A stretch of DNA of 63,450 nucleotides, from the NCBI GenBank assembly GCA_016180815.1, contig JACPAN010000022.1, positions 1 through 63,450 on the forward strand, read 5' to 3'. The position numbers and the translations under genes were made by a program. This document shows, one piece after another, positions 22,848 through 51,536 of the stretch. The notes beneath the pieces were generated by a model. That model saw only the letters and a program-made list of their open reading frames with translations. It had not been told where the DNA came from and did no database searches. Numbering within the stretch: the stretch's first letter is position 1; each line of letters opens with the position of its first letter. This DNA is from Elusimicrobiota bacterium. GTDB taxonomy: Bacteria; Elusimicrobiota; Elusimicrobia; JACQPE01.

Positions 22848-24188
22848 TTATTTATCCCCGAGGATGTTATTGAGAATTTTTTCGCCCAGCTTGAGCATGG
22901 CCGAGCGTTTAACTTGAGAATTGTCTTCGTGGCCCAAGATATGAAGGAGGCCGTGTATATATAGGAAGAGGATTTCTTTCTCCAGGGCCCATGGCGTTTG
23001 GCGTTTGGCTTGTTCCACATTAATAAGGATTTCAATGAGCGGGGGCTCGTCATAGGAAAAACTGATGACATCAGCGTCTTTGGCCCGGCCCCAAAAAAGC
23101 TTCTTGACCCGGCGGGCCTCGCGGTCCCCGCAGAAAACGACCAAGATTTCCTTGTTAATTGCCGTCCGCGAAGCTTTGCCCGGATGAAGCGTAAGGGTGA
23201 GGCGCGCGGCTGATTGGAAAGCCGATTGTTCTGGGATTTGAAACTTAAGGCGGCGGCTGCGGAAGGCGCGGATCATGTCTTTGACCAGGGGGTGACGGAC
23301 GACATCCGTTTCATTAAGCCGGATAAAGGTGATGCCGGGAATTCCGCCTAAAACCTGTTCCGAGGCCTCCAGGCCGGAGAGCCGCTTGTTTTCAAGATCA
23401 ATTTGAGTGACGTCTCCGGTGATCACGATTTTTGAACCCTGGCCCATGCGCGTTAAAAACATTTTCAGCTGATTCATGGTCGTGTTTTGCGCCTCATCCA
23501 GGATGATAAAGGCGTCTTCCAGAGTCCGGCCGCGCATATAAGCCAACGGGACGATTTCAATGGTTTCCGTGACCTGAAGCGCCTTGAATTTTTCCGGGCC
23601 AAGCATCACGTAGAACGCATCGTACAGGGGTTTTAAGTAGGGGTAAAGCTTCTCATAAAGGTCGCCGGGCAGGAAACCCAGTTTTTCACCGGCTTCAACC
23701 ACCGGGCGCGTCAGCACAATGCGGGAAACGCGTTTGCTCCTCAAGCATTTCAACGCATAGGCCACCGCTAAAAAGGTTTTGCCCGTGCCTGCGGGCCCCG
23801 AGGAAATCACGATATCGTGATTTCCAATGGCTTCAATGTAAACGCGCTGATTTTTTGTTTTGGGAATAAGGGGTTTGCCGGAGTTGGTGATGATAATGGC
23901 TTCCGGGTGTTCGGCGACGGGCGTTTCAAATTCTTCGGCGGCATGATTTTCCCGGTTGTTGACGGGAAGGGCAGCCGTGCCTTCGCGATCATGGAGAAAC
24001 TCGACGGCTTTTTCGATTTTTTTCTTGGGTCCGCGCAAGACCAGGGAAATATCTCCGGAGGAGCGGTCCCGTTTGACATAGGCATGGACTTTGAAGCGCT
24101 GCTCCAGGATTTGCAAATTCGTGTCGTCATGGCCGAACAGAGCCATGGCGTGATTCGGATTTTCAATATGGATTTTTTTAACCGGCAA
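22848..24188 (-). CDS. PhoH-like ATPase fused to YbeY endoribonuclease
   Basis: 446 residues in one frame. Residues 1-300 are PhoH (YbeZ): an N-terminal KH-like region, P-loop GPAGTGKT at 131-138, Walker B AFIILDEAQN and the TRMGQGSKIVITGDVTQIDL segment. Residues ~310-446 are YbeY, the rRNA-maturation and quality-control RNase: ISFSYDEPPLIEILINVEQA and IHGLLHILGHED. PhoH and YbeY are usually separate neighbouring genes, so the fusion supports their joint function. The YbeY zinc motif is normally HGxLHLxGYDH; here His412 and His416 are kept, but the third position is Asp422, with His420 and Glu421 beside it. It overlaps aspS by 11 bases. Confidence 0.93.
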   Translation of the reverse strand: MPVKKIHIENPNHAMALFGHDDTNLQILEQRFKVHAYVKRDRSSGDISLVLRGPKKKIEKAVEFLHDREGTAALPVNNRENHAAEEFETPVAEHPEAIIITNSGKPLIPKTKNQRVYIEAIGNHDIVISSGPAGTGKTFLAVAYALKCLRSKRVSRIVLTRPVVEAGEKLGFLPGDLYEKLYPYLKPLYDAFYVMLGPEKFKALQVTETIEIVPLAYMRGRTLEDAFIILDEAQNTTMNQLKMFLTRMGQGSKIVITGDVTQIDLENKRLSGLEASEQVLGGIPGITFIRLNETDVVRHPLVKDMIRAFRSRRLKFQIPEQSAFQSAARLTLTLHPGKASRTAINKEILVVFCGDREARRVKKLFWGRAKDADVISFSYDEPPLIEILINVEQAKRQTPWALEKEILFLYIHGLLHILGHEDNSQVKRSAMLKLGEKILNNILGDK

Positions 24189-25929: not shown

Positions 25930-27194
25930 CAGGAATTAAGCCGATTTTTTAAATGCGCGCTTAATTGGGCGCGGATCACGGTTTCTTGTTGCCCGCTGCC
26001 CAGCTCTTTAATGACCACGCGTTGATTTTGACACTCTTCGTCCCCGACGATCAAGGCGAGTTCGGCGCCGGAACGTCCGGCTTGGCGCATTTGGCTTTTC
26101 ATGCTGTCTGTGTACCCGGGGGTGAACACGGCAATGCCTTGCTTGCGTAAATCGTGGATAATGCCGAATGCGTAATCGAGGGTCGCGGAGCTGGGTTTAA
26201 CCATCACCGCAAAAACTGCTTGACGGCCGCGGGCTGAATCAACGGCTTGGCCCGCTGTTTTGGCTTCGATAACGCGGTCCACGCCCAAAGCGAACCCGGA
26301 AGCCGGGGTCGGGGTTCCGCCTAGCAACTCGACCAACCCGTCATAGCGGCCGCCTCCGGCCACGGCGTTTTGCGCTCCCAATTGCGCGGCCGAGATTTCA
26401 AAAACCGTGCGCGTGTAATAATCCAAGCCCCGGACAATGGAGCGGTCTTTTTTAAAGGAGACATCGTTTGAGCGCAGCAAGGATTCCACGGTTGATTCAT
26501 GCGCCGCGCATTGCGCGCAAAGGGCGAAGGCTGGGGCCGCGGCTTGGGCTTTGGGGCCGCAGGTTTTACAGTCCAGGCATCTTAAAGGATTTTTGTCCAA
26601 GCGTTTTTGACAATCCTCGCAGAGTTCCCCGGCTATTTTGTCCAAGGCTTCTTTGAGCGCCCGGCGATAAGGCCCCCGGCAATTCGGGCAACCGATGGAA
26701 TTGATGGCCAGGGCGGGGTTCTTTAACCCATATTCATTAAGGATGGCCAGGGCCAAGGTAATCAGCTCGGCATCCGCGGCCGGGGAAGGATCGGCGAAGA
26801 TTTCAAATCCGATTTGCTCGAATTCCCGGTAACGGCCGGCTTGAGGGCGCTCGGCGCGGAACATATTGGCGATGTAAAAAAGCCGGCGGCTGTTTTCTTT
26901 CTGGCTTAGATTATTTTCCAGGTAGGCCCGCACCGCGCAGGCCGTACCTTCGGGCCGCAGGGCCAATTGCCGTCCACCCCGGTCCGTGAACACGTACATT
27001 TCTTTTTCTACGATATCCGTGTTTTCTCCGACGCCCCGGGAAAAAAGACCGGCTTCCTCGAACGTCGGCGTGCGGATTTCCTCAAAGCCCCAGAGCCGGG
27101 CCATTGTTCTGGCCGTGGATTCGAGCTTAACGAACTCGTCCACCGACGGAGGCAGAATATCCCTGGTGCCGCGAACGGCCTGAAACTTAGTCAC
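25929..27194 (-). CDS. hisS: Histidyl-tRNA synthetase
   Basis: 421 residues, class II. It begins FQAVRGTRDILPP, has motif 2 around FYIANMFRAERPQAGRYREF, the histidine-specific LDYYTRTVFEI region, motif 3 SGFALGVDRVIEA and a C-terminal anticodon domain. A Cys-rich stretch at about 195-230 (LCEDCQKRL, LRCLDCKTCG, LCAQCAAH) forms a zinc-ribbon-like insertion seen in some bacterial HisRS. It heads the minus-strand run hisS-aspS-phoH::ybeY-queG, which links tRNA charging, tRNA modification and ribosome quality control. A 43-base dispersed repeat lies just upstream. Confidence 0.97.
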   Translation of the reverse strand: MTKFQAVRGTRDILPPSVDEFVKLESTARTMARLWGFEEIRTPTFEEAGLFSRGVGENTDIVEKEMYVFTDRGGRQLALRPEGTACAVRAYLENNLSQKENSRRLFYIANMFRAERPQAGRYREFEQIGFEIFADPSPAADAELITLALAILNEYGLKNPALAINSIGCPNCRGPYRRALKEALDKIAGELCEDCQKRLDKNPLRCLDCKTCGPKAQAAAPAFALCAQCAAHESTVESLLRSNDVSFKKDRSIVRGLDYYTRTVFEISAAQLGAQNAVAGGGRYDGLVELLGGTPTPASGFALGVDRVIEAKTAGQAVDSARGRQAVFAVMVKPSSATLDYAFGIIHDLRKQGIAVFTPGYTDSMKSQMRQAGRSGAELALIVGDEECQNQRVVIKELGSGQQETVIRAQLSAHLKNRLNS

Positions 27195-27211
27195 TAGGCG
27201 ATTATATGGTT

Positions 27212-27254
27212 TCCTCTTGCGCAGAGCTACGAGGACGCTGGCCCACCTGAGGCG
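27212..27254 (+). repeat. Dispersed 43-bp repeat, copy 1
   Basis: Aligned without gaps, 39 of 43 bases match copy 2 at 39934-39976, including the exact core GAGGACGCTGGCCC. It lies in the gap between the crp stop codon and the hisS start. Confidence 0.8.
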
Positions 27255-27261
27255 CTGCCGG

Positions 27262-27969
27262 TTAATTTTCGGATTGGGACAACTCTTTAAGTTTGTTGTC
27301 CGAGAGGATTCTGATGCGGTGGTCCTCGTAATCGATGACGCGCAGGCGTCTAAGCGAAGAAAGCACTTTAGTGACCATTTCCCTGGCTGTGCCCGCCAAG
27401 TCAGCCAACTCGGCGTGCGTTACGGACATGGGGATGGAGCCTCCTGATTTGCCGCCTTTGCCGTATTTTTTGGCCATTTCCAGGATTTGGCGGCAGACCC
27501 GGCCGTACAGCGAACGAAAGGTCAATGCCTCGATTTCCTCGTTGGCCCGGCGCAGGCGTTCGATCAGCGTTTTAGTGACGTTTAAGGTGAATTGAGGTTC
27601 TTCAAGAAGCAGGCGCTGAAATTCTTTGCGTGAGATGGTCAGCAGTTCGGTCTCTTCCATGGCTTGGGCGGATAAGGACCGGCCTTTTTTATCCAACAGA
27701 CTCATTTCCCCAAAAAAATCGCCTGGTTCCAAGTAAGCGAATGTTTTTTTCTTGTTGCTTTGATCGAGCCCTGAATAAATTTTAATCCGGCCTTTCATCA
27801 CCACGAACAGATGATTGCCGGCCATGCGTTTCTCGAAAATCAGGATGCCTTTGGGCACTTGATGCACGCGCGCAATGGAAGCCAGGCGCTTTAAATCAGC
27901 GCCGCCCATGCCCTCAAAAATGGAAATTTTTTTCAACAATGAAACGGCTTCGGAGTGGGCCATAGACAT
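27262..27969 (-). CDS. Crp/Fnr family transcription regulator
   Basis: 235 residues from ATG 27969 (MSMAHSEAV); ATG 27963 is equally possible, and an upstream in-frame start at 28002 would overlap the likely promoter. The cyclic-nucleotide-type beta-barrel has GNHLFVVMKGRIKIY and LEPGDFFGEMSLLDKKGRS, with the phosphate-binding FGE...R-S pattern kept. The dimer helix is followed by the HTH VTHAELADLAGTAREMVTKV, whose recognition helix retains Arg-Glu as in E. coli CRP (SRETVGR). No Fe-S cysteines of the FNR type are seen. It is divergent from the exported protease gene, with a CRP-like box between them. Confidence 0.93.
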   Translation of the reverse strand: MSMAHSEAVSLLKKISIFEGMGGADLKRLASIARVHQVPKGILIFEKRMAGNHLFVVMKGRIKIYSGLDQSNKKKTFAYLEPGDFFGEMSLLDKKGRSLSAQAMEETELLTISRKEFQRLLLEEPQFTLNVTKTLIERLRRANEEIEALTFRSLYGRVCRQILEMAKKYGKGGKSGGSIPMSVTHAELADLAGTAREMVTKVLSSLRRLRVIDYEDHRIRILSDNKLKELSQSEN

Positions 27970-27973
27970 TGTA

Positions 27974-28002
27974 AATGTACACAAGCTTATGCTCTTTCGC
28001 AA
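27974..28002 (-). promoter_or_regulatory. Candidate promoter of the crp-family gene
   Basis: On the minus strand TTGCGA (27997-28002), a 17-base spacer and TACATT (27974-27979). Predicted transcription would begin near 27967, giving an almost leaderless message starting at ATG 27963. Confidence 0.35.
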
Positions 28003-28031
28003 GAGGCAATCGCTGAATCGGGATTTTGCGA

Positions 28032-28047
28032 TGTGAGTAAAATCACC
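28032..28047. promoter_or_regulatory. CRP-type operator in the divergent region
   Basis: TGTGA-GTAAAA-TCACC, nine of ten specified positions of the CRP consensus TGTGA-N6-TCACA. It lies between the crp-family gene and the exported protease gene. Its centre is about 42 bases before the start predicted from the TATACT at 28070, the class II activator position. Confidence 0.65.
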
Positions 28048-28069
28048 GGGCCGTCTTAGGGCGGGCGCG

Positions 28070-28075
28070 TATACT
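28070..28075 (+). promoter_or_regulatory. -10 element of the protease promoter
   Basis: TATACT with no recognisable -35 hexamer at the expected spacing, as is usual for class II CRP-activated promoters. The first ATG (28087) is only 11 bases on, so the true start codon may be the downstream TTG at 28174. Confidence 0.45.
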
Positions 28076-28086
28076 TATTTGGGTTC

Positions 28087-31000
28087 ATGCCTGTTAATTT
28101 TGGTATAAACATTTCTTCCGCCGAAGCCGGCCCCTTATCCGGGGGCTTGGCGAGGCGTGGAATTGGTCGTACATTGAACAAAACCAAGCGATCATTTAAC
28201 GGGGGGATAAGCAAGTTATTGACCGCCGGCCTGCGGGCTTTGGCGGCGGGTTTCTTTTTAGGTTCGGCCCCGGCCTACGCCCAATCCCAGGCAGAGCGGG
28301 CCCAGGTTTCCTTGGATGAGTTGAACCGGCTCAAATCAAATCTTTCGGAAAAAGAACGGTCTCGTTTCCGTTTCGACGGGCAAACCCAGGAAATCCGCAG
28401 CGCTTACAATTTTAAGGCCGAGGCTCAAGCCGGCCGCGATCCTCGCGACGTGGCCGTTGACTTTATTCAAGAGAACCGCAAGCTGTTTTTTAATCCTCCC
28501 GAGGAAGCCCGCGGTTATGCCCCGGCCGCCTTCGGGCCCGCGGCGGACAACTATATTCAGCAACGCTTGGCCCTTGAGCTCGATCGCGATCATCCGAGCG
28601 CCGGTGAAAGAAATATTCTGTTTCGTGAGCGCTATGACGGCATCCCGGTTGAGTTTTCTCGTGTTTCCGCGCATTTGACCCCGGACAACCGCGTTTTTGC
28701 CGCTTTTTCCAGCCTTGATTCCGGCGTGGCCGGCGTCAACCCCAAGCCTAAAATTTCGGAAGCCGAAGCCTTAGCCGTGGTTATTCGCGAATGGGCCAAG
28801 GGTTTCCCGATCGATGCCAAGGGGCAATTGGTTTATCTTCCTAAGCGTTTCGAGGAAGCCGGGCACCCAACGAAAAAAGGCAAAACAAGACTGGCCTGGA
28901 AATTCCGCTTCCGTTTCGTTAAACCCACCCGCGATCCAAGGAAGAATCATGGTTTGTGGAGCGTGTATGTGGACGCGCATACCGGAGAATTGGTCGGAGA
29001 TATCAATGAGCTCAAATCTTTTCCGGCCAGATTGAGGCATTTTCAAAGGGATCCGAATGAAGGCGCGACAGGCATTCTTTCGACCGTTCGCGGTCTTGAG
29101 GTTGTTCAGGGGGATAATACCGGCAATTTAACGCTGATTCCCACTAATGCCTTTGGACGTTATGATTATGCCGGGTCCGGATATTTGGCCGCCAGCACGT
29201 TATTCGCGGTTTTAAGAACCACTTATGCCGCGGTGATCGATGAAAAAGGAACGAATCCTATCTATGCCGAAGGGGGAGCGGCGTGGAGTTTCGTCAATGT
29301 TTCTTCGGCAAGCGCATCGCCTTATCCGGTCAGCAGCCGGCTTCTTCAGCAATATATATGCCCGGATCGAACCGTTTTTTCAAATGTCCGTTTCAGCGCC
29401 TTTGACGTCGGTTTTCAACCGACGGAGGATTCTGGCGGGCAGGAAGATTTGGATTTTGTCGAGGTTTTGCAGTCGACCGGGCATCGGCGTTTGGCGGTTT
29501 ACACCGGCCAGAATAAGGGTTCGTTCACAACATTTTCCACAACCGGGACTCAGCTTGATCTTCGCCTCGTGTCCAACGCCACCGACGGCAGCGGCAATGA
29601 AGGGGGCTATCAGGTTAATCGAATCAATTGTTTGGTTCAAAACGCCAATGTCAATTTGGCTGCTTTGCCGGATTTGCGGTTTTTTGATTCGGACGGCGTG
29701 TTGATTTCAAGCAATATCGCGACGCCGGCGACAGCGGCGCATAACGAAGACGAGGCCTATGCCGTTGCCATCGATCATTTGGGACGCATTGTCGTGGCCG
29801 GCGCCAGCGACAACGACACCAGCAATGATTTGATTGTGATGAGGTTTTATGCGGACGGCACATTGGACACGAGTTTTTCCAACGGCGACGCGGACGGGGT
29901 CAACGGCGTGTTTGTTTTTAATGGCTCCGGCAATGGCGCCGATGAAGCCAGAGGGATGGCCATCGATTCTTCAGGCCGTATTCTGGTAGCGGGTTTTTTG
30001 ACGGCAGCGAATCAGGACGCGGCTGTTTGGAGGCTCAGCGCAGACGGCATTCTAGATACCACTTTCTCCAACGGCGACGCGGACGGCGTCGACGGCGTTT
30101 ATATTTATAACGGGGCGGGGAACGGCACCGATCAAGCCAATGCCATTACCATTGATTCTTCCGGGCGTATTTTGGTGGCGGGCTTTCTCCAAAGCGCAAC
30201 CAATCGGGACATGGCCGTGTGGAGGCTTTCCTCCAACGGGCTGCTTGACACGGCATTTGCAACTGCAGGAGAAGATGGGGTGTTCAGCTATAACGGGGCG
30301 GGGGATGATTCTGATGAGGGTAATGCCATCGTTGTCCTTTCCTCCGGGCCGATTATTGTCGCTGGTTACACGGAACGATTGTCTGCAACCAATGAAGATA
30401 TGGCGGTGTGGAGACTGAATTCCAGCGGTATTTTGGACACTAGTTTTTCTAACGGCGACGCGGATGGGATTAATGGGGTTTTTGCCTATGATGCGGGTCC
30501 CGATGATGAGCGCGGTCAGGGCGTGGTTGTGGATTCTTTGGGCCGCATTATCGTAGCCGGGTATAGCGAACGTTTGACCGATGGCAACGAAGACATTGCC
30601 GTATGGAGGTTATCGGCAAGCGGTTTGATTGACACTTCATTTGGGAGCAGCGGGCTGTTCGCCGTTGACGGCGGGCAAGACGATGATCGCGGGCACGCCG
30701 TCACGCTTGACTCATCGGGGCGCATTTTAGTCGCGGGGTTCGCTGACAGAGCCTCAGTGAGCAACGAAGATTTGGTTGTTTTGAGAATTTTAGATACCGG
30801 TTCTATCGACACTTCTTTCGGGAGCAGCGGGTTATTCGGCTATGAGGGCGGAATTGGTCAGGATAGAGGGCAGTCTCTGGTCATGGATCCTTTTGGGCGT
30901 CCTCTTGTTGCCGGATTCAGCGAGGCGGGCGTCATTGGGAATAATGATTTGACGCTGATCAGGCTCGATGCCAACGGCGCGCTGAATGTCGTGACTTCCA

Positions 31001-32763
31001 ATGCCCTGAAGCATATTGAAGAAATGCACGGGTATTTTACCGCCGGAAGCGAGCGGTACAATGCCGTTCTTTCCACTCGCCCCGCGGTTATTCATGTTAA
31101 TTTCGGCGATGAGCTGGTCAACGCTTTTTTTGATCCTGAAACGGATATCCTGGCGTTCGGCGAGGGCGGGGACTTGAATTTCAACCGCAATATCGCCTTG
31201 GCTACGGATGTTATTTACCATGAATACACGCATTTGGTCGTCGATCATATTTACAATATCGCGAATTTCGGCCAGGACGGCGCCATTTCCGAAGCTTACT
31301 CGGACTTTTTCGCGCTCGACGCCTTCAATGTCAATTATCCTGCGCTGGGCAAAACAACGTTCGGCGATTTCGCGTTTCCCGATCGAGCGGAGCTTGAACT
31401 TTTTTTGGTGCGCGAGTTAAATCAAAGCTCCAAGAAAAAATATCCGAATGACTGGGTTGGCGAAATTCATGACGACAGCTTGATTCTTTCGGGCGCTTTG
31501 TGGGACTTGCGCACGGCTTTGGGTCCGAGCTTGACCAAGAATTTGGTTCGGGATGCGATGTTTTATTTTCCGGACAGCTTCCAGTCTTTTTATGAGGCTT
31601 TGATTACCACCAGCGCCGGCCGCTTCGACAGCACGATCACCTCCATCTTCAATAATCACGGCATCGGCTCCTGGGCCATTTCCGGGGCCGACACATTCGA
31701 GCCCAATGACGGTTTTCAAACCGCCACGGCATTGGCCTCCGGCGTCAATAAAAAGGCCACGATTTTTCCGGCCGGCGATTTGGACTATTACCGGCTGGTC
31801 GCGGGCGCAGGGCCCGTCACAATCACCCTTAAGAGACCTCTTGATCCTCAATCTTTTCTTTATTTTGCTTACGGCTTTTTCGTTTACGATATTAATCGTC
31901 TGACCGTCGGGCAAGCGATGCCGGAGGCGGTGTTCGAGCTGCCTGCTTCTGGCGGCAAATTTAATTCCGCGGTGGGCGAGCAAAACGCGAGCGTGACCTT
32001 AAACTTGGCTGCCCCCCAGCTTCTTTATGTGGCGGTTTCCGCGCCCATTCTTGAGAATTCAAACGACACCACGAATTCGTCTTCCCTGCAATACGAATTA
32101 TTCCCCAGCTTTAACGCGCCCGTCGGGTCCATCTCCGGGAATCAGGTTTCCGCCTCCATGGCGGATCAAAGAAATATCAGGTATACGGCTTTAGGCTTGA
32201 CCGGTTATGAGGTCGAGCAGGCGACCGAAGCCGTCGTCGATCATGTGGATATTCTGGATCATAATATGACCAAGCTCAGCGAAGCCTCGGCCTCTTTCCT
32301 GACCGTGACCACGACCACGGTATTGCCCGGGCGTCTCGAGGGAGTCGTGACCCTGCCCGCTAATTTCTTCGACCGGTATCCTTCCGTGGGCACGATTCAT
32401 ATGGAGATGTTCGTCCGCAATGCCTTGGGCCGCGTTTATTCCGTGGGCGTCTCCAATCCCATCAAGGTTTTCTCGGATACGGCCAAGCTGACCGCTTACA
32501 ACAATATTTTCAATCCTGTCCGGGGTCAGCGCGCCACGCTCAAATATTCCAGCACCGGCTCCGGGCGTTATCGTTTGGCCATTTACACCATAAACGGAGA
32601 TTTAGTGCGCATGCTGGTGGATCGCGAGGAGGAAGCGGGATTATCCTCGGTTGACTGGGATGGGCGCAACGGGGCGGGCGAGATGGTGGCCAGCGGCATC
32701 TATTTCGTGCATTTGGAAGGTCCGAGCATTAAACAGACGCAAAAAATCGTGGTGGTCAAATAA
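28087..32763 (+). CDS. Exported M36-like metalloprotease with delta-60 repeats and FlgD-like sorting domain
   Basis: 1,558 residues. A basic leader precedes the signal segment ending APAYAQ near residue 65; TTG 28174 may be the real start. Order of parts: FTP/PepSY-type propeptide (~70-300); beta domain with CPDRTVFSN-type strands; seven ~60-residue repeats with GRILVAG signatures (555-968); zinc protease domain with HEYTH at 1045-1049 and Glu1069 in AISEAYSDF; PPC-like domain (~1198-1330); and C-terminal FlgD-like/type-9 sorting domain ending GIYFVHLEGP to VVVK. It is synthesised as a zymogen and most likely secreted to the cell surface. It shares one base with the PorV-like gene behind it. 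The domains are clear; the substrate is unknown. Confidence 0.93.
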   Translation: MPVNFGINISSAEAGPLSGGLARRGIGRTLNKTKRSFNGGISKLLTAGLRALAAGFFLGSAPAYAQSQAERAQVSLDELNRLKSNLSEKERSRFRFDGQTQEIRSAYNFKAEAQAGRDPRDVAVDFIQENRKLFFNPPEEARGYAPAAFGPAADNYIQQRLALELDRDHPSAGERNILFRERYDGIPVEFSRVSAHLTPDNRVFAAFSSLDSGVAGVNPKPKISEAEALAVVIREWAKGFPIDAKGQLVYLPKRFEEAGHPTKKGKTRLAWKFRFRFVKPTRDPRKNHGLWSVYVDAHTGELVGDINELKSFPARLRHFQRDPNEGATGILSTVRGLEVVQGDNTGNLTLIPTNAFGRYDYAGSGYLAASTLFAVLRTTYAAVIDEKGTNPIYAEGGAAWSFVNVSSASASPYPVSSRLLQQYICPDRTVFSNVRFSAFDVGFQPTEDSGGQEDLDFVEVLQSTGHRRLAVYTGQNKGSFTTFSTTGTQLDLRLVSNATDGSGNEGGYQVNRINCLVQNANVNLAALPDLRFFDSDGVLISSNIATPATAAHNEDEAYAVAIDHLGRIVVAGASDNDTSNDLIVMRFYADGTLDTSFSNGDADGVNGVFVFNGSGNGADEARGMAIDSSGRILVAGFLTAANQDAAVWRLSADGILDTTFSNGDADGVDGVYIYNGAGNGTDQANAITIDSSGRILVAGFLQSATNRDMAVWRLSSNGLLDTAFATAGEDGVFSYNGAGDDSDEGNAIVVLSSGPIIVAGYTERLSATNEDMAVWRLNSSGILDTSFSNGDADGINGVFAYDAGPDDERGQGVVVDSLGRIIVAGYSERLTDGNEDIAVWRLSASGLIDTSFGSSGLFAVDGGQDDDRGHAVTLDSSGRILVAGFADRASVSNEDLVVLRILDTGSIDTSFGSSGLFGYEGGIGQDRGQSLVMDPFGRPLVAGFSEAGVIGNNDLTLIRLDANGALNVVTSNALKHIEEMHGYFTAGSERYNAVLSTRPAVIHVNFGDELVNAFFDPETDILAFGEGGDLNFNRNIALATDVIYHEYTHLVVDHIYNIANFGQDGAISEAYSDFFALDAFNVNYPALGKTTFGDFAFPDRAELELFLVRELNQSSKKKYPNDWVGEIHDDSLILSGALWDLRTALGPSLTKNLVRDAMFYFPDSFQSFYEALITTSAGRFDSTITSIFNNHGIGSWAISGADTFEPNDGFQTATALASGVNKKATIFPAGDLDYYRLVAGAGPVTITLKRPLDPQSFLYFAYGFFVYDINRLTVGQAMPEAVFELPASGGKFNSAVGEQNASVTLNLAAPQLLYVAVSAPILENSNDTTNSSSLQYELFPSFNAPVGSISGNQVSASMADQRNIRYTALGLTGYEVEQATEAVVDHVDILDHNMTKLSEASASFLTVTTTTVLPGRLEGVVTLPANFFDRYPSVGTIHMEMFVRNALGRVYSVGVSNPIKVFSDTAKLTAYNNIFNPVRGQRATLKYSSTGSGRYRLAIYTINGDLVRMLVDREEEAGLSSVDWDGRNGAGEMVASGIYFVHLEGPSIKQTQKIVVVK
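29749..30990 (+). repeat. Seven delta-60 coding repeats
   Basis: Seven units of about 180 bases within the protease gene, each encoding a (S/L)GRI-(L/I/V)-VAG strand, a WRL or MRF strand and an LDTSF turn. Near-identical DNA (for example AACGGCGACGCGGA) recurs in units 1, 2 and 4, indicating recent internal duplication or conversion. Confidence 0.85.
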
Positions 32764-40004: not shown

Positions 40005-43000
40005 TCAGGGCGCAGCCGGGCTTGCCGCGGAACGGATGACGCCATAGCGCTCGGCGCGGGCGCGCAAGGCCGCCTCATAAGCCGCGATCGAATCCGCGGA
40101 AAAAACGATCACGTCTTGGCCCCCGTCCGGCCGGCTAAACGTGTAGTCTTGCCGGACGACGGCCAACACGTCTTCTCTGGAGCGGCCGTTTAAGCGCTCG
40201 GCCAGGTAGCTGCGCACGGATTCGTCGCCGAGCTCGAACGACGTCACATCCCCGCGCGCGTTTAAGTGAACCACGCCTCCCTGAGTCAACAGTTCCGGGT
40301 AGCTGCGTTGAAATTCATAGCGCCGCCGTTCGTTTTCAAAATTTTCCCGGGCCACGTTGTAGCCTAAAAACGCCTGGTGGATTTCCCGGACCCGGCCGTT
40401 TGAATCGAATAAAACCAGGGCCATGGTTTGGGGGTTAAAGAGCCACGTGCCGTCTCTGGACAGATAAGAATTCGTCGGCGCATCATAAATGGTTTGCGTC
40501 GCGGCGTCGAGCGTTTGACGCACGCGGCGGCGCCAATTTTCCAATGCCTCCGCGCCCGCGAGCAAGCGCCGGCTGTCGACCCTCCCGTTTTCAAAGCGGA
40601 CATGCGCGGTGCCGCCGGGTCCGCTGATGATACGCTCCCAGGAATCATGGTCGCGCCCGCGGGTTTCGGCGGTTTGAACGCGGGCCTCGGCTCCGGGGAT
40701 GCCGGGGATGAGCTGGCCGGATACTTCGGAACCCGTGGGCATCACTTCCAACAGGAATGAACCGTCCGGCGCAAAACGCACGCCGATGGACCGCAAGGAA
40801 TTGACCACTTGCGTGTAGGTCTCCCCCTGGGGGAGGACTTGAAGCTGGGTGTCGCGCCAATGGCCGTAGGCGCCCGGCACAAGGCGCCGCTCGCGCAGTT
40901 CGATACCGCCGGTGAAGGCGGCCAGCACGCGCCCTCTTAATACTTCGTAGTCTTCCTCCCGATACCGCAGCGAGCGCTCTAAAGCCTTGGCCCCGGGGCG
41001 AACGACCCGGTTGGTTGATTGATCCGTGCGCGGATCAACTTCGACCAAGCGATCGGAGTTCCTGCCGGCCAAGGTCAAGCTGATATAGTAAAGCGCGCGA
41101 TCCCAGGTCGAGGCCGGGTCCCGGGCCACGAGTTGCGGGTAGCCGCTGGGGTCGTTTAAGTGATCTTGGGGTTGGGGAACAACTTTGCGGAAAATCGCCT
41201 GATTGGCGATGTCCCAGGCCAAATCCAAGGCAAAGCCCCAGCTTTGCTCCATGGCGCCCTCTCCGGTTAAGGCATGAATGCGATCCGCGGTGTTGGCGCC
41301 GCCCACGCCGATGGTCAAAGGCAACAGCCAGGGGGTGAAAAAGGCCTGAGTCACTACTTCGCCGGCAAAACCCAAGGTCAACAGCCAGGGCCGGATTTGA
41401 GTGCGGGTCAGATTGCCGCGCACTTCCCCGCGGAATTCTTTGAGCATGTCAGCCGAGTAAACCACGGTTGTGCCGGCATCGGGATTAACCACGGCCACGG
41501 CCCGGGCCAAGCCCGCATCCGCTCCTCCGGGGAAGCGGTTCCTGGCCACGGGGTAAATTCGATTGTCATCCATGAAATAAGCCCAGGAAGAGAGCGGCCC
41601 GTCTTGCGTGGTGTCCTTGTTGACGATGCGGCGCACGCGGAAATCCCGGTCGATTTCAATGGCTCCCCAGTTGCGGTGCCAACGCGTCGTCGCCGGTCCG
41701 GCGCCGCCGAAGCGTTGGCGCCACTGGGAGCCGTCTAAGGCCGTCATTAAGGCTTCGACGATATTGCCGTCCGCATCCAAAACAACGGTCATGTCGTTTG
41801 ATTTAAACAATCTGTTTTTAGGGTGATGGTCTTGCGCCTCGTCCAGATCGTCGTCCGACATGAAAACTTTTTCGATGCGCCCTTGTTCGTTCATCAAAAA
41901 ACCGTAGGACGTTTTCAAGTACACATAGGCGGATTGCATGGCGCGCCTAAGTTCGCGATGGGCGTCGCGCCTTAAACGGCTGTCGCCGTTTTGAGTCGAG
42001 GTGATTTCGCGGACATCCGCGCCGAATTGATCGAGTTCATCGGCTGTCTGAATGCCGGCTAAAATTTCCGGAGTCCGGCCGAAATAGGCGAAGAAGCGAA
42101 GGCTCCGGTTGGGCGCATTGGGCGCGTTCATTTCTTCCGGGCTGATGCGCATTGGGACCCCCTCGATGGGATTTTCTTCGAATACCAAAAGGCGGCCGTC
42201 CCTCAATAATTCCTCGAAGGTCCAGACCCTGGCCCCACCTTGCCCGGTGAAATAATAGTCGCCGTTTAAATAGATTTCCATGGCTTGGCGCTGCCAAAAA
42301 GTGCGATTGGCGATGTAAGTGGGATCTAACGCCCGCTGCGTGCTGCGCCGCCATAAAACGAGTTGCCGTCTTGAGGCCAGCTCAAAGGCTTCGCTTTCAA
42401 GCAGGACGCGGATGGGCTCCTGTTCGCTTTCGCTGCTTGGCGTTTCCGGCGCGCCGCGGTGCGGATTCATCACTGCGAAGGAGTCGGGGTTGCTGTGATA
42501 AGCCTGCTCCCTTAACCACCGGCCTTCGTTTTCTTCGAAGCGGCGCGTGACCAGGTTAAATGACCGGGCCGTTTCCTCGCGCCCGGGGTGAAATTCCATA
42601 AACCCGGCGGCCGCGGCTTCTTGAATCGTGCTTGGCGCCTGTCCCCTGTAGTTGAACGGCGCCAAGAAAATTCTTCGAGAAGGGTCCTCCAACAATTCAT
42701 CGGACAGGCTGATGCGTTGCCCGGTTCCCGAATCATAAGCCGTCAAGCGCCGCTGGGTGCGCCATTCTTCAAGTTCCAGGGCGCTGACCACCAGCGTGGC
42801 TCCGTACGCGGCGTTGCCGTCGGCCTCAAGCGCGGTCAGGACTCCGGCCGGCCGGTTGTCCCGCCTGAAGCGCAGGGAGGCGTCCCTGCGGATGCGCTGG
42901 GCCATGTTCTCGACATTGGACCGTTCGTCCTCGGGCAAAGCCGTCAAGCGCGCATTAATTTGCGTGCCCCAGGCTTCAAGGCGGGCTTGTTTTTCATCGG

Positions 43001-46000
43001 GCGTCAGTTCATGCCAGCGGGCCACGGGCGTGGGATTGATTTCACGGGCCAGGCTCAAGGCTTCGGCGTTGCCCATGGCGCGCACGCGCCGGTCCATGGT
43101 CCAGGGATCGCGGCTGCCCCGGCCGAGGCCTCTGGGAATTTGAATGCCCAGAAGCTTCAAATCAGCCTCGATTTGCAGGTAAAGCTCGTGCATTTTGGAC
43201 GTTGCCAGCAGGGTCTCTTCAAAGGCATTGTGGTAGTGATCGAGCAAATCGATATTGCTTGGATCGCGTTCCATCTCCGTTTTTAGGTTGTAGAGGAAAA
43301 CTTCCCGTTGGGCCAGTTCATCGACTAAGTAGCGCAGGGCGAAGTAGTTTTGAGCGAGCCGTTCCCGGGCGTCGCCGGCTAAAGTGCCGGCGGCCAGCAC
43401 CGAGGCGATATTGGAATGGATGACGAAATCAATGTCCCGGAATAAATCCGCCCCCGGCGTTCGCCCGGCCGTGGGCGCGGACACCATCATGCCGCCGATG
43501 ATGCCGTTCCTTAGGTAGCCCAGGACAAAGGACGGGCTCATGGATTGGTAGCGCAGGTTGTCCACGATTGCCTGACCCTGAAGGCGGCCGATGGCCAAAT
43601 CTGATTGCAGGCTGCCCAGCACGGGCGCGTCGCCGACGACGTAGCGCAGAGCCGTGTTGACTAAAACATTCAAATCATCGGTATTTATGGGGTGGGCGCG
43701 GATTACGGAGGGATATTCTTCTGGAACGAGGGCGAATTCGCTTTGGATTTGATTTTCGGTTTCCCGGATGCGGCCGGCGATGCGTTCGCGAAGAGCCTGA
43801 TCGACGGCTTCGTTCAATCGGTCGGTCAGGTATTGGTGTCGCCAAACGAGCCCGGAAAGCCGCGACTGGCGCATATCGCTTTCCATGCGCTCCGTGCGCA
43901 CTTCGCGCTCGCGCTCGAGCTCCTCGGCGCGGGCCAAGAGGCGCGGGTTGATCATTTGCGGCCGCGAGAGCATGATTTGAATCATGCCTTCATAATACGT
44001 GACTTGATGGCGGGTATTGGGATCGAAGAAACGCTTGGAGCGTCCGGCTGTTCCCGGCGTGGGGTCCGCTTCTTCGGTGACGTAAACGCGCGCGCCCCAG
44101 CGCAAGAGAGGCTCGGAACGCCGCTCCGTGATCAGGGGCGTGTGCCTTGACGTGATCGTGCCGCTGAAGCCTTTGGCGATGGACGCGGACCAGGCCAGTT
44201 CGCGGTTTAAACGGTTCATCATCGAAGGATCCTCGGCGATGGCGCGCTCGGCCGAGCCCAGGCGCACCGTGGCCCGGTTTCGATCGATGACCATTTGTCG
44301 GTCATAGCGCTCCAGCGTGCGTTCCAGCTCCAGGCGGTGGCGCCGCACCGCGATTAAATCCACTTGGCTCGATCCGGTCGGCCCTTCTTCGCCGAAAAGT
44401 CCGGCTACGATATCGCCGACCACCTGGAACAAGGCGCCGATGGGATCGGTGCGGATATTCATGCCGCGTTCCCTCAGCAGCAATTTGCCTTCCATCGCGC
44501 GCACGACTTCCAGCCGGGCTTCCAGCGCCCGGCGTTGAATTTCCGGCGCGCGCGAGAGGTTGGATTCGATCCAGGGGCGCAGGGCTTCGGCCGTGGATAC
44601 CGGGTTTCTTCTCATGAGTTCTTCCAGGTCGAGTTCGTGCGTATTGGGGTCAAGGCCCAGCAGGATGAGCAGGCGCAGCGATTCTTTTTGCACGGCCATA
44701 CGCAGTTCGAGGATTTCGATATTGAATCGCGCGATATCGCTGAGGTCTTGGGATTCTTCGGCCCGGCGGATCAGTTCCCGTTTCGCGGATTCGGAAAAAA
44801 CCAGCCTGAGGTAGGCTTCCACGATTTGCCGTCGCAGGTCCAGAGACTGCAAGTCCCTGTCCGCAACCGTGGCCCGGGCCAGGGCATGGGCGAAGCGTTC
44901 TTCCACCCGGCTCGTGCCGGAAGATTTGATGGCTAATTCGATGGAAGGCAAGAGCATGCCCCAGCCTCCGGTGGTGAAAATAGCCGTATTGGTTTCAAAC
45001 CAGATATTGTTGACCGGATTCCAGCGCGCGCCCAAACGCACGCCGAGGTTGAACCGGGCCTGAGCGGCTTCCTCCAGATGCTGGGCGACCTGGGTTTCCA
45101 ACGCGAGTTTGGCCAGAGTCCTGGAGCGGGATTCGGCTTGCTGAATCAGCGGCGCAAATTCATTGACGCGATAGCGTTCGCGTCTGGGGGGCGTGGCGGG
45201 GGCGGCCAGGCGCGGCAGGCGCGCCAGCTCAAGATAAATGCGGCTCGATTCTCTCGCGGCTTCGGCCAAGTCATCGAGCAACCGCAGGCGTTCGGTGAGG
45301 GTTTGCGCGGCGTCGAGCCTCTCGCGAAGTCCGGCGATATAAACATCCATGATTTCTTTTTCGCGCTCCAGGGCCCAGCGGTCGAAGCGCATCACGTCCG
45401 GATTGTTCTGGAGATTTTCCCGCATCAGGCGTTCGGCTACGTCCAAGTCCGCGATCTGCCCTTCCAAAACCGTGGCTTCGCGGCGATGGCGCCGATCCGC
45501 GTCCCACAGCGTCAATTTGACCGAGCCCCCGATGCCGGCGAATGAATTGCCCATCTCATCCCATAAATTGGCGCCGAGGCTGATCGTTAATTCATCGATG
45601 AAGGGCAGGAAATTCAGAGGGGAAACGAATGAGATGGCGCGCTCGGCCCAACCCGGCCGGGCCGTGTCCCCCGGGTCGGTTTCCGAAAGCCGCTGCAAAA
45701 ATTGCCGCCACCCGTTTCTAAATTCAAACGCGCGAGTGACCGCGGCCAACGTGGCTTCGGGATTGTTCGGGTCAATGGGGATGGATTCGATTTCTCTCGG
45801 CAGGGGATCCCGCAAGGCCAGGCCTAAGCGCGCCCGCAGCAGGGCTTCGGCTTGGGCTTGTTCGGAGCGGGCTTCAAGCTCCTCGAGCTCGATCGCGGAC
45901 AAGAGCGTCGGATCACCCGCCACGTCCGGGCGGGACTTGATGCCTTCCAATTGCCGGACCCTCAATCGCGCCAGCACCACGCGCATGCCCGCGGTTCGAA

Positions 46001-49000
46001 AACCCTCGATGGATTCGTTATAAGCGGCTTTGAGATCAAGAAGCATCACTTTCATCCGGGCGATTTCCCTCATCGCCGCTTCTTTCTGAGGACGGGTGAG
46101 GCCCATGAAAATTTCAGCGCCGACCTGGATGCCTCCGGCGGTTGAGGAGAATCCATAGGCTTTTTGAGAAACCGAGCCTCCCGAAGTCCCTTCGCTTTGC
46201 GGGTCGCTATAGCCCGTGCCCAAAACCACGCCCGCATTGGCGGACAAGCCCGCATTAAATACCCGCTGCAATTCGACGGCTTCCGCTTCCCGGGCGCCGA
46301 TGGCTTGGGTTAGGGCCGCGATCCGGGTATCGCGGTCTAAAATTCGCCGCAGAGCCAGATTCATGGAATAGGAGTCGCCGGTGGCCGTGCTTGTGGAACG
46401 CGGCAGCACGCGGTCCAACTCTTCCCGGAAATCCCCGAGCGTGTCCCCCCCGCGCAGCGCCTCCTCCGCATTGGCGCTCGCATTCCTGCGCAATTGTTCG
46501 AGCGTCAATCCGGTGCGCACGCCCAGCATCAGCCTGGGCACGGATCGGATGCGGTCTGTGCCGTACGATAGGTAAAGTTCGGAGCCCGCGCCCAGGCGCA
46601 AATTCAACGCCACTTGGCCGGTGTATTGTTCGCCGTAGCGCGCGCCGCGCACTTCGATGGAGATGCCTCTGGGCAGAATCAGCGCCACGCGTCCGGCCAG
46701 TTCCAGTTCGTTGTTTTGATCGAGCGCGGCCCTGGTTTCGCCCCGGATCGAGGTGGGTTCGCCGAACATATTGAAGTGGATTTCTTTGACGATCCGGGCG
46801 CCTTTCCAAAATTTATGGTAATTGTCCGCCACGTTTTCGCGGTACTCATCGGAGACTTCGCCGTTGTTGACTTCCGTGCCGTTTTCATCTTCGATGAAGA
46901 ACTCGACGCTAAAGGTATTTTTTGTGGAGAAAATTTTGGCTAAATCGAATTCCACGCCCGCATGGCGCTGGATGTACTGCAGGATCGCGCCTTCGATATG
47001 CACGCTTTCCTCGTTCATGTTCAACGGGTCGATGGAGGTGTTGATGGTGCGGGAGAATTCGTACGGGTCCCGGGCGAAGAGCCCCAGCACCGAAGCGTTG
47101 ATCCCCACGACTTCGTGCAGGTACAGCGTGGCCTTGGCCCGGCCGCCGACCACATAGGGGGGAGCGTCCGGATTGCAGCCCGGGGGCGCATTGCCGTCGG
47201 CCCCCGGTTCGCAGGTCGCCCCTTGATTGAGAGGAAAATCCCCGAATCCGGTCAATGAAATAAAGAGGCGGTCCTGCAACACCATGAACGCCATGTTTTC
47301 AAAAACCATGAGCCGGTAAATATGTCCCTGCTGCAGGTTTTGATGGATGTCGATGACCGTGGTATTAATGTAGCGCTCGTCCGCGCGATCGCGTTCGAAT
47401 GTCGCCCGGATGCCCCGCGCGCCGCGCGGCGGCTCGGCTAAATCTTTCCAGTCGTATAGCGACAGCGACATGTTGTGCCCCAACACTTCGCCTAAATTGC
47501 CGAATTTGAGCAGCGTGTCCGAGGTGAAATTATTGACGACTTGATCCCCGGAGCCTAAGGCCGTGCCGGCCGTGAAATTGACCACAACATAAAAGGAATC
47601 CGCGCCCGAACCAACGGGGATGACTTCATAATTGGATAAGCCCAGGGCCGAAACCCAGGAGTTGACGGAAGGCGTTTGGCCGCCGGCTAAGGCGCCCTGG
47701 CTCAAAATGCGGTTGACCGTATTGCGGCGCACGAAGAGAGCCCCGGAACGGTTATTGATTTGGTCCGGATCGTCGAACCCGTCCGAGGGGTAAAGCAATT
47801 CGCCCTGAAGCACCATTTCCCGGCCCCGAGCGAAGCTGGGATCGTCGGGGTTAACCCGCTCCAGCATGGCGGCGACTCGTTCGCGTTCCACGCGCAGGCG
47901 TTCCAGCGTTTCCCTTAATTTTTGGCGTTGTTTTTTCGTTTCCTCGGCGGCGTAGATGAGGAATTTTTTGTTTTTCAGCCGGCGTTCGATTTCTTCGCCG
48001 GCGTCGCTGATGGCGCGCGCCAGGCGCCTCATGGCCGGGTCTTCACGGGGATTGATGTTTTCAAGCCAGCGTTTAATGTTGTTGAAGTCTTCCAGGAAGG
48101 TGCCGGAAAGTTCGTTGATGAATTCTTCGAAGGCTTGCAAGCCTTCGGCCTCGGTATTAAAGAAGCTTTCTTCCGCCTGGTGGAGAGTGCCGAAACCGTC
48201 GCGATAAAGTTTGATGAAGCCCAGGTAGGTGTCCGCCTTGGCCGCGGCCGCGGGCCGCTCATAAGTTCTCAAAAAATCCAGCAAGGCATTGGCCATGTCG
48301 AGTTGCAGGTGGGAAATTTCACTTTGTTTGCCGATGACATCCGCCTCAAGAAATTGGAAAAAGCTGGGGCCGGAGGCCAAAAAGGAGCGTTTCCAATGGT
48401 AAAACTCGAGGCTGGTCTCGGCCACGCCCATGGCGCGTTTCAAGGCCGCATAAGCGCGATGGGCATAACCCTCGGGCGAAACGGCCTGGAAGTCCTCACG
48501 GATCATGTTGACGAGTTCATCCATTTGGGTGTTGCTGATGACGCCGAGGCGATTGACCAGCAAATCCCGCTCCATTTCCAAGCCTTCGATGGCCAGGCCT
48601 TTAAGGCCGGCGGCCACGGCCCGGCCTGCGTCCATGCGGCTTAGGGTATTGTCGTAATAAGGCTCGGGCCCGATATTATCCGGGAATCCGGCGTCTTTTC
48701 GATAGGCCAGGCGCAGCGCGTTCAACGTGGACTCGGCGATTTTAAAATCGATGACCGCATAGCCGAAGGTCAACAAAGCGAAGCCTTCCCGCCGGGTCAA
48801 GAGACTGGCGACTTGATCGGGCGTGGCCTGCAATTCCGGATCCTCGCGCACGCCGATATAAAAGCATGCGCCCCGGGCCTGGGGATTAGGGGCATTGTCT
48901 ATACAATCGCGGATTCCTTTTAATTGCCGGAATTCATCCATGCTGGTTCTAATGGCGCCTTCGGACGTCTGCAGGCTGGCGATCAATTCTTCGGTCCACA

Positions 49001-51374: not shown

Positions 51375-51536
51375 GAGTCCATTTACCAACAGCTGCCTTG
51401 TATCTCCCCCCCAGCTCCCGGCGACAGGGCTGGGCTGGCCAACGGACTCACGAACCCTTCAACCAGGATCGTGGAAGTCCATTTTATCAAATGCAGCCAG
51501 CCGCAGCCCTCCATTTTGGTCTAGGGTCCGGTTTTA

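Follow-up and report, generated by a model that had tools for sequence, protein, structure and literature searches.

The 63,450-nucleotide stretch of Elusimicrobiota DNA analyzed here (the window) carries a gene for a Crp-family regulator and, in the opposite direction, a gene for an exported protease-like protein, with a CRP-type box between them (Table 1). For CRP, the textbook activator, the strict spacing known from E. coli serves as the yardstick when other bacteria are examined. The question raised by this locus is whether the box is placed so that the neighboring regulator could activate the protease gene, and whether the E. coli yardstick applies in this lineage.

Table 1. Features of the crp/protease region (window coordinates).
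Feature	Position	Strand	Remarks
Crp-family regulator gene	27262..27963	-	ATG 27963 by ortholog alignment; in-frame ATG at 27969
-10-like TACATT of crp gene	27974..27979	-	10 nt before ATG 27963
-35-like TTGCGA of crp gene	27997..28002	-	17 bp from TACATT; box centre 37.5 bp upstream
CRP-type box TGTGAGTAAAATCACC	28032..28047	.	centre 28039.5; core TGTGA-N6-TCACC
P1, -10-like TATACT of protease gene	28070..28075	+	30.5 bp from box centre, no -35
Exported protease-like gene	28087..32763	+	FTP propeptide, DUF5122 propeller repeats, Peptidase_M4, FlgD_ig; ATG 28087 uncertain
P2, extended -10-like element TTTTGGTATAAA	28098..28109	+	common to 4/4 family peptidase upstream regions

The preliminary description of the locus had placed a TGTGA-N6-TCACC box about 42 bases before a start predicted from a TATACT hexamer devoid of a -35 element, and both the arrangement and the lack of a -35 were found again. 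The distance from the box centre to the first base of the TATACT (P1) brings the centre near -42.5, provided that the transcription start lies 7 nt beyond P1. At the 17-bp spacing from P1, the sequence matches TTGACA at 2 of 6 positions, and a two-hexamer promoter scan of 27100-28300 gave no match. The matrix score of the box (19.2) falls within the range of 36 Elusimicrobia boxes (12.3-26.1), and cores with at most one mismatch are not in excess within the window (6 found, 5.25 expected). The E. coli class II promoters of the mglB, cdd, glpT and udp type share the TGTGA-N6-TCACA letters with the lineage box; their box is centred around -41.5, at 29.5 bp from the -10 element, and their -35 is lacking or replaced. 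The window promoter resembles them by a -10 element without -35 and by a box that immediately precedes the polymerase site, and a position of the activator type is supported. In the E. coli literature the class II position is given as -41.5, and moving the malT site revealed a local optimum at -42.5 (PMC10882989); class II sites are described as overlapping the -35 (PMC6301791).

The regulator contains a cyclic-nucleotide-binding domain and a Crp helix-turn-helix, the domains of CRP within the Crp/Fnr family (Pfam matches PF00027, 2.6e-20; PF13545, 1.4e-15; PF00325, 1.4e-4). Among proteins of solved structure, the closest in sequence are the Crp-family regulator 4ev0 and 3d0s from Mycobacterium tuberculosis, which we take to be Rv3676, the CRP of this organism, solved in other entries as well. 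The Arg-Glu pair of the CRP recognition helix reads TGTGA. This pair, which the neighboring regulator had been said to keep, is indeed present: the recognition helix is AREM in the window protein, R-E occurs in 18 of 18 aligned Elusimicrobia orthologs and, among the three Crp-type helix-turn-helix domains above cut-off in the genome, only that of the window protein carries it, the two others being L-E and Q-E. The third contact of the helix is Lys in the window protein and Arg in most other orthologs and in E. coli. In the phosphate cassette GE and RS are kept, and the equivalents of Thr127 and Ser128 (E. coli numbering) are Ala and Asn. Rv3676, which binds TGTGA-N6-TCACA, also combines R-E and Lys in the recognition helix with Asn at the Ser128 position, but has Thr at the Thr127 position where the window protein has Ala. 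Class III cyclase domains were detected in the four family genomes. Cyclic AMP is the likely ligand of the window protein, though not a certain one because of the Thr127 to Ala and Ser128 to Asn changes in the pocket.

The count of further boxes in the genome, proposed in the preliminary description as a check, revealed the exact 9-base core at 5 places (7 strand matches) of the 2.85-Mb genome, versus 0 for the reversed pattern. Four of these places were judged intergenic, in a genome whose sampled part is ~94% coding: two before response-regulator genes, one before a gene for an exported protein without Pfam match, and the window box itself. The fifth is inside an apparent glyQ, a gene named by eye. 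One intergenic core, on contig C17, sits in a 99-aa mechanical ORF that overlaps other genes and was judged spurious. With one mismatch allowed, the motif gave 17 sites against 12 for the control, little above it, and was rejected as not useful for a genome-wide search. In three family relatives the exact core was found at 13 places, 9 of them judged intergenic; two of the nine, L144 and L145, are in contact with a mechanical ORF at its extended 5' end. Coding status was assigned from mechanical ORF calls and hand judgement in these family sets, and by a fixed rule in the set from other families (coding when inside an ORF and >75 nt from its 5' end). In 14 genomes of other Elusimicrobia families which have regulator orthologs, TGTGAN6TCACA is found at 37 places, distributed over 10 of the 14 genomes, versus 2 places for the reversed pattern. 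By these counts, the box is a real motif of the lineage.

Some neighborhoods of the family boxes recur. Four of the nine intergenic boxes of the relatives (G001 C43, G001 C180, G002 C68 and G003 C2) lie at most about 200 bp from prepilin-type N_methyl matches, which total 20 in these relatives. In the window's own genome, the four intergenic boxes are all away from such matches. Three family boxes adjoin response regulators. A link of the family boxes to type IV pilus or competence is possible.

To analyze the spacing, -10 hexamers were scored over all distances on either side of the box. A peak at 31.5 bp was obtained with the 13 intergenic family boxes (sum 30.2 versus a mean of 6.7; permutation over all distances, p 0.0035, this and the other p values of the spacing test being too small since some boxes are orthologous, namely those of G005/G014 and of eight genomes of one genus in the phylum scan). 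No peak at 31.5 bp was seen with the 5 coding family boxes. For the boxes of other families the test was fixed beforehand and 13 of the 37 boxes were dropped as coding; the 24 non-coding ones peaked again at 31.5 bp (49.7 versus a mean of 16.3, sd 7.0), a value reached in 0 of 20,000 draws. When 340 genomes from the phylum were scanned for a box combined with TATANT, 27 spacings being allowed, 119 matches were obtained, of which 26 lie at 31.5 bp, a count inflated by orthologous promoters and reduced to 18 at <72% identity. In the class Elusimicrobia, 18 of 44 matches are at 31.5 (~10 of these 18 once G005/G014 and the one-genus group are collapsed by hand), 2 at 30.5 and none at 29.5; for the remaining classes of the phylum, the corresponding numbers are 8, 5 and 4 of 75. 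The E. coli control, made of 15 boxes (at most 2 mismatches) upstream of 13 genes taken as CRP-regulated, peaked at 29.5 bp (30.2 versus a mean of 4.3), with 0.9 at 30.5 and 0.8 at 31.5; the galE box picked by the program is off its known place and contributes nothing to the 29.5 peak. Outside the phylum, 47 genomes, E. coli not among them, gave 36 matches with 8 at 29.5, 4 at 30.5 and 0 at 31.5, those at 29.5 coming from three genomes (two Fibrobacteres and one Delongbacteria).

In the 26 phylum matches at 31.5 bp, a -35-like hexamer follows the box directly (mean 3.19/6 versus 0.35-2.08 at neighboring offsets; TTGACA itself in 5 of the 26) and TATACT is the commonest -10 hexamer (16 of 26). 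The E. coli class II promoters, with 29.5 bp from centre to -10, differ from those of Elusimicrobia, with 31.5 bp and often a -35-like hexamer flush against the box. These results suggest that the class Elusimicrobia places the -10 element two bp farther from the box than E. coli. Two bp represent ~70 degrees round the helix, so that either the surface by which CRP activates or the way in which sigma and alpha dock would have to differ. That the CRP-polymerase contact of Elusimicrobia would be built for 31.5 instead of 29.5 bp, with the box flush against the -35 and not replacing it, is a proposal for which we see even chances; the shift could mean either activation by a different surface or repression. 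The window, at 30.5 bp, is one bp off both the E. coli and the lineage peaks. The classical activator geometry attributed to the locus therefore holds as closeness to the E. coli rule and fails with respect to the lineage's own peak.

Five matches of the class (G005, G014, G035, G042 and G111) have a spacing of 41.5 bp, which exceeds 31.5 by one turn of the helix, and three of them carry TTGACA-N17-TATAAT. This distance is perhaps a second activator position.

The box was then looked for before the same genes in the nearest relatives. It is missing from the matching intergenic region in G001 and G003, where both genes are still divergent, and in G002, where the two genes lie apart, no box was found before crp or before the peptidase gene. 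The best matrix scores at the equivalent regions range from -9.6 to 2.1, compared with 19.2 in the window. Footprinting of the box across the family relatives was rejected as negative, with no conservation in the three relatives. As none of the three nearest relatives has it ahead of these genes, the window box looks like a recent gain.

On the protease side, the four family peptidase upstream regions share the string TTTTG(n)TATAAA, and TTTG(n)TATAAA has two occurrences in 462 kb, both strands included. The protease gene probably has in this element (P2) a second, older promoter. P2 lies downstream of ATG 28087, which is 11 nt past the TATACT, and so within the reading frame as assumed. The probable site of signal cleavage is ~20-30 residues after the start in the relatives and ~66 residues from ATG 28087. 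Since P2 is downstream of this ATG and the stretch preceding cleavage is shorter in the relatives, two TTG codons in frame, at 28147 and 28174, are good candidates for the protease start, which is perhaps later than ATG 28087. The codon usage of 28087-28149, at +1.45 bits, does not discriminate between these starts. The conserved -10-like element found downstream makes ATG 28087 doubtful, as well as the transcription start that had been predicted from TATACT. In the encoded protein, the FTP propeptide motif and the M4 catalytic match flank the DUF5122 beta-propeller block, and FlgD_ig is C-terminal.

On the regulator side, a TATAAT-like hexamer (at least 4/6) stands 9-10 nt before the aligned crp ATG in four of four orthologs (chance of 2.8% per sequence in the genome sample), and a TTG(N3)-N17-hexamer arrangement was read by eye upstream of crp in the same four. 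In the window, the gap of 10 is within the 6-10 nt which, in the absence of a Shine-Dalgarno sequence, were used to define a near-leaderless message; the G001 ortholog also shows AGGGG before its ATG. The crp message is probably near-leaderless. The view that both divergent messages are nearly leaderless is thus supported for crp only; for the protease it depends on ATG 28087, which the relatives do not favor. Leaderless genes of bacteria are known from the Deinococcus and Mycobacterium type. Similarly, in 379 ORFs over 462 kb of the window's genome (contigs C22, that of the window, C15, C3 and C7 of G000), hexamers with 5/6 matches to TATAAT pile up 6-9 nt before the starts (17 at gap 6 versus a background of 1.08 per gap), and leaderless messages appear widespread in this genome. 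The crp gene differs from that type by its gap of 10 and a predicted leader of ~3 nt. Among the literature matches listed, as judged by titles and beginnings of abstracts, no paper dealt with the CRP regulon or leaderless genes of Elusimicrobiota.

A class I reading for crp, grouping by eye three family sites, that of the window included, at 37.5/60.5 bp, was not replicated in the set from other families (p 0.97) and is retained as no more than a possibility. An imperfect palindrome, TTGTAAATGTACACAA, was read by eye at 27969-27984 over the crp -10 and start region and could be a further operator.

We propose that the ligand-bound Crp-family protein would bind the box and help RNA polymerase to start at P1 of the divergent protease gene, in a class II-like activation. 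P1 would be a recent, genus-level addition to the older P2, so that the regulator would increase expression of the protease without being the only switch of the gene. The crp gene would be transcribed from its own -35/-10 promoter as a nearly leaderless message and, the same box being at a class I-like distance upstream, its autoregulation is possible. Binding, ligand, activation rather than repression and transcription starts are what we infer from the sequence in this model, to which, taken as a whole, we give about the same weight as to its being wrong. The motif, the regulator family, the presence or absence in relatives and the spacing statistics were computed. The model is supported by the exact cores (5 versus 0 reversed, 4 of 5 intergenic; 37 versus 2 in the 14 genomes), by the sole R-E regulator of the genome, with R-E in 18 of 18 orthologs and cyclase domains in 4 of 4 genomes, by a -10 peak at 31.5 common to both box sets and the phylum scan, with the window at 30.5, and by P2 and the crp -10, each kept in 4 of 4. 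Were counted against it the absence of the box in G001, G002 and G003, the 17 versus 12 sites of the one-mismatch motif, a window promoter one bp off the lineage peak and without the -35-like hexamer common in the 31.5 set, and Ala at the Thr127 position of the pocket.

P1 may also be unused. The conservation of P2 in four of four relatives and its rarity elsewhere, together with the short signal peptides of the relatives, which favor starts downstream of P2, are compatible with P2 alone driving the protease; the box would then serve crp, by autoregulation from about -72 or as a repressor block, and its 37.5/60.5 spacing to the crp -35/-10 resembles, by eye, two other family sites. We consider this rather unlikely, as no hexamer is more frequent in the lineage set than TATACT, here at a class II-like distance, and as the set from other families shows no enrichment of the 60.5 spacing (p 0.97). 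The box could also be read by the Crp-family protein at promoters that are mainly repressed when the box is flush against a -35 hexamer; 31.5 bp would then mark a repressor operator position rather than an activator one, and the window would behave likewise. Several promoters at 31.5 bp are near consensus (TTGACA-N17-TATACT) and would need little help, a CRP footprint would touch the flush -35, and both activation and repression are reported with CRP at -40.5 (PMC6301791). Many matches at 31.5 have nevertheless a poor -35, as the mean of 3.19/6 indicates, and the absence of a -35 in the window suits activation; repression is in our opinion improbable. A chance match without function would agree with a box conserved in none of the three family relatives and with a one-mismatch motif barely above control genome-wide. 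It is hardly credible in view of an exact core that is mostly intergenic, of a TATACT at the expected place and of the sole R-E regulator being encoded next door.

If the lineage spacing is as proposed, the spacing rule would evolve while the DNA code of the box stays fixed, and the CRP regulon of an almost uncultured phylum could be listed directly, the window promoter being an ordinary and recently gained member of this regulon. The lineage-wide 2-bp shift is the new and notable point.

Two other genes of the window deserve mention. PhoH and YbeY are usually encoded by two neighboring genes; at 22848-24188 (minus strand) both domains are fused in one protein of 446 aa. At 40005-51389, also on the minus strand, lies a reading frame of 3794 aa with a single Pfam match, to an outer membrane efflux stretch, in the middle of the protein.
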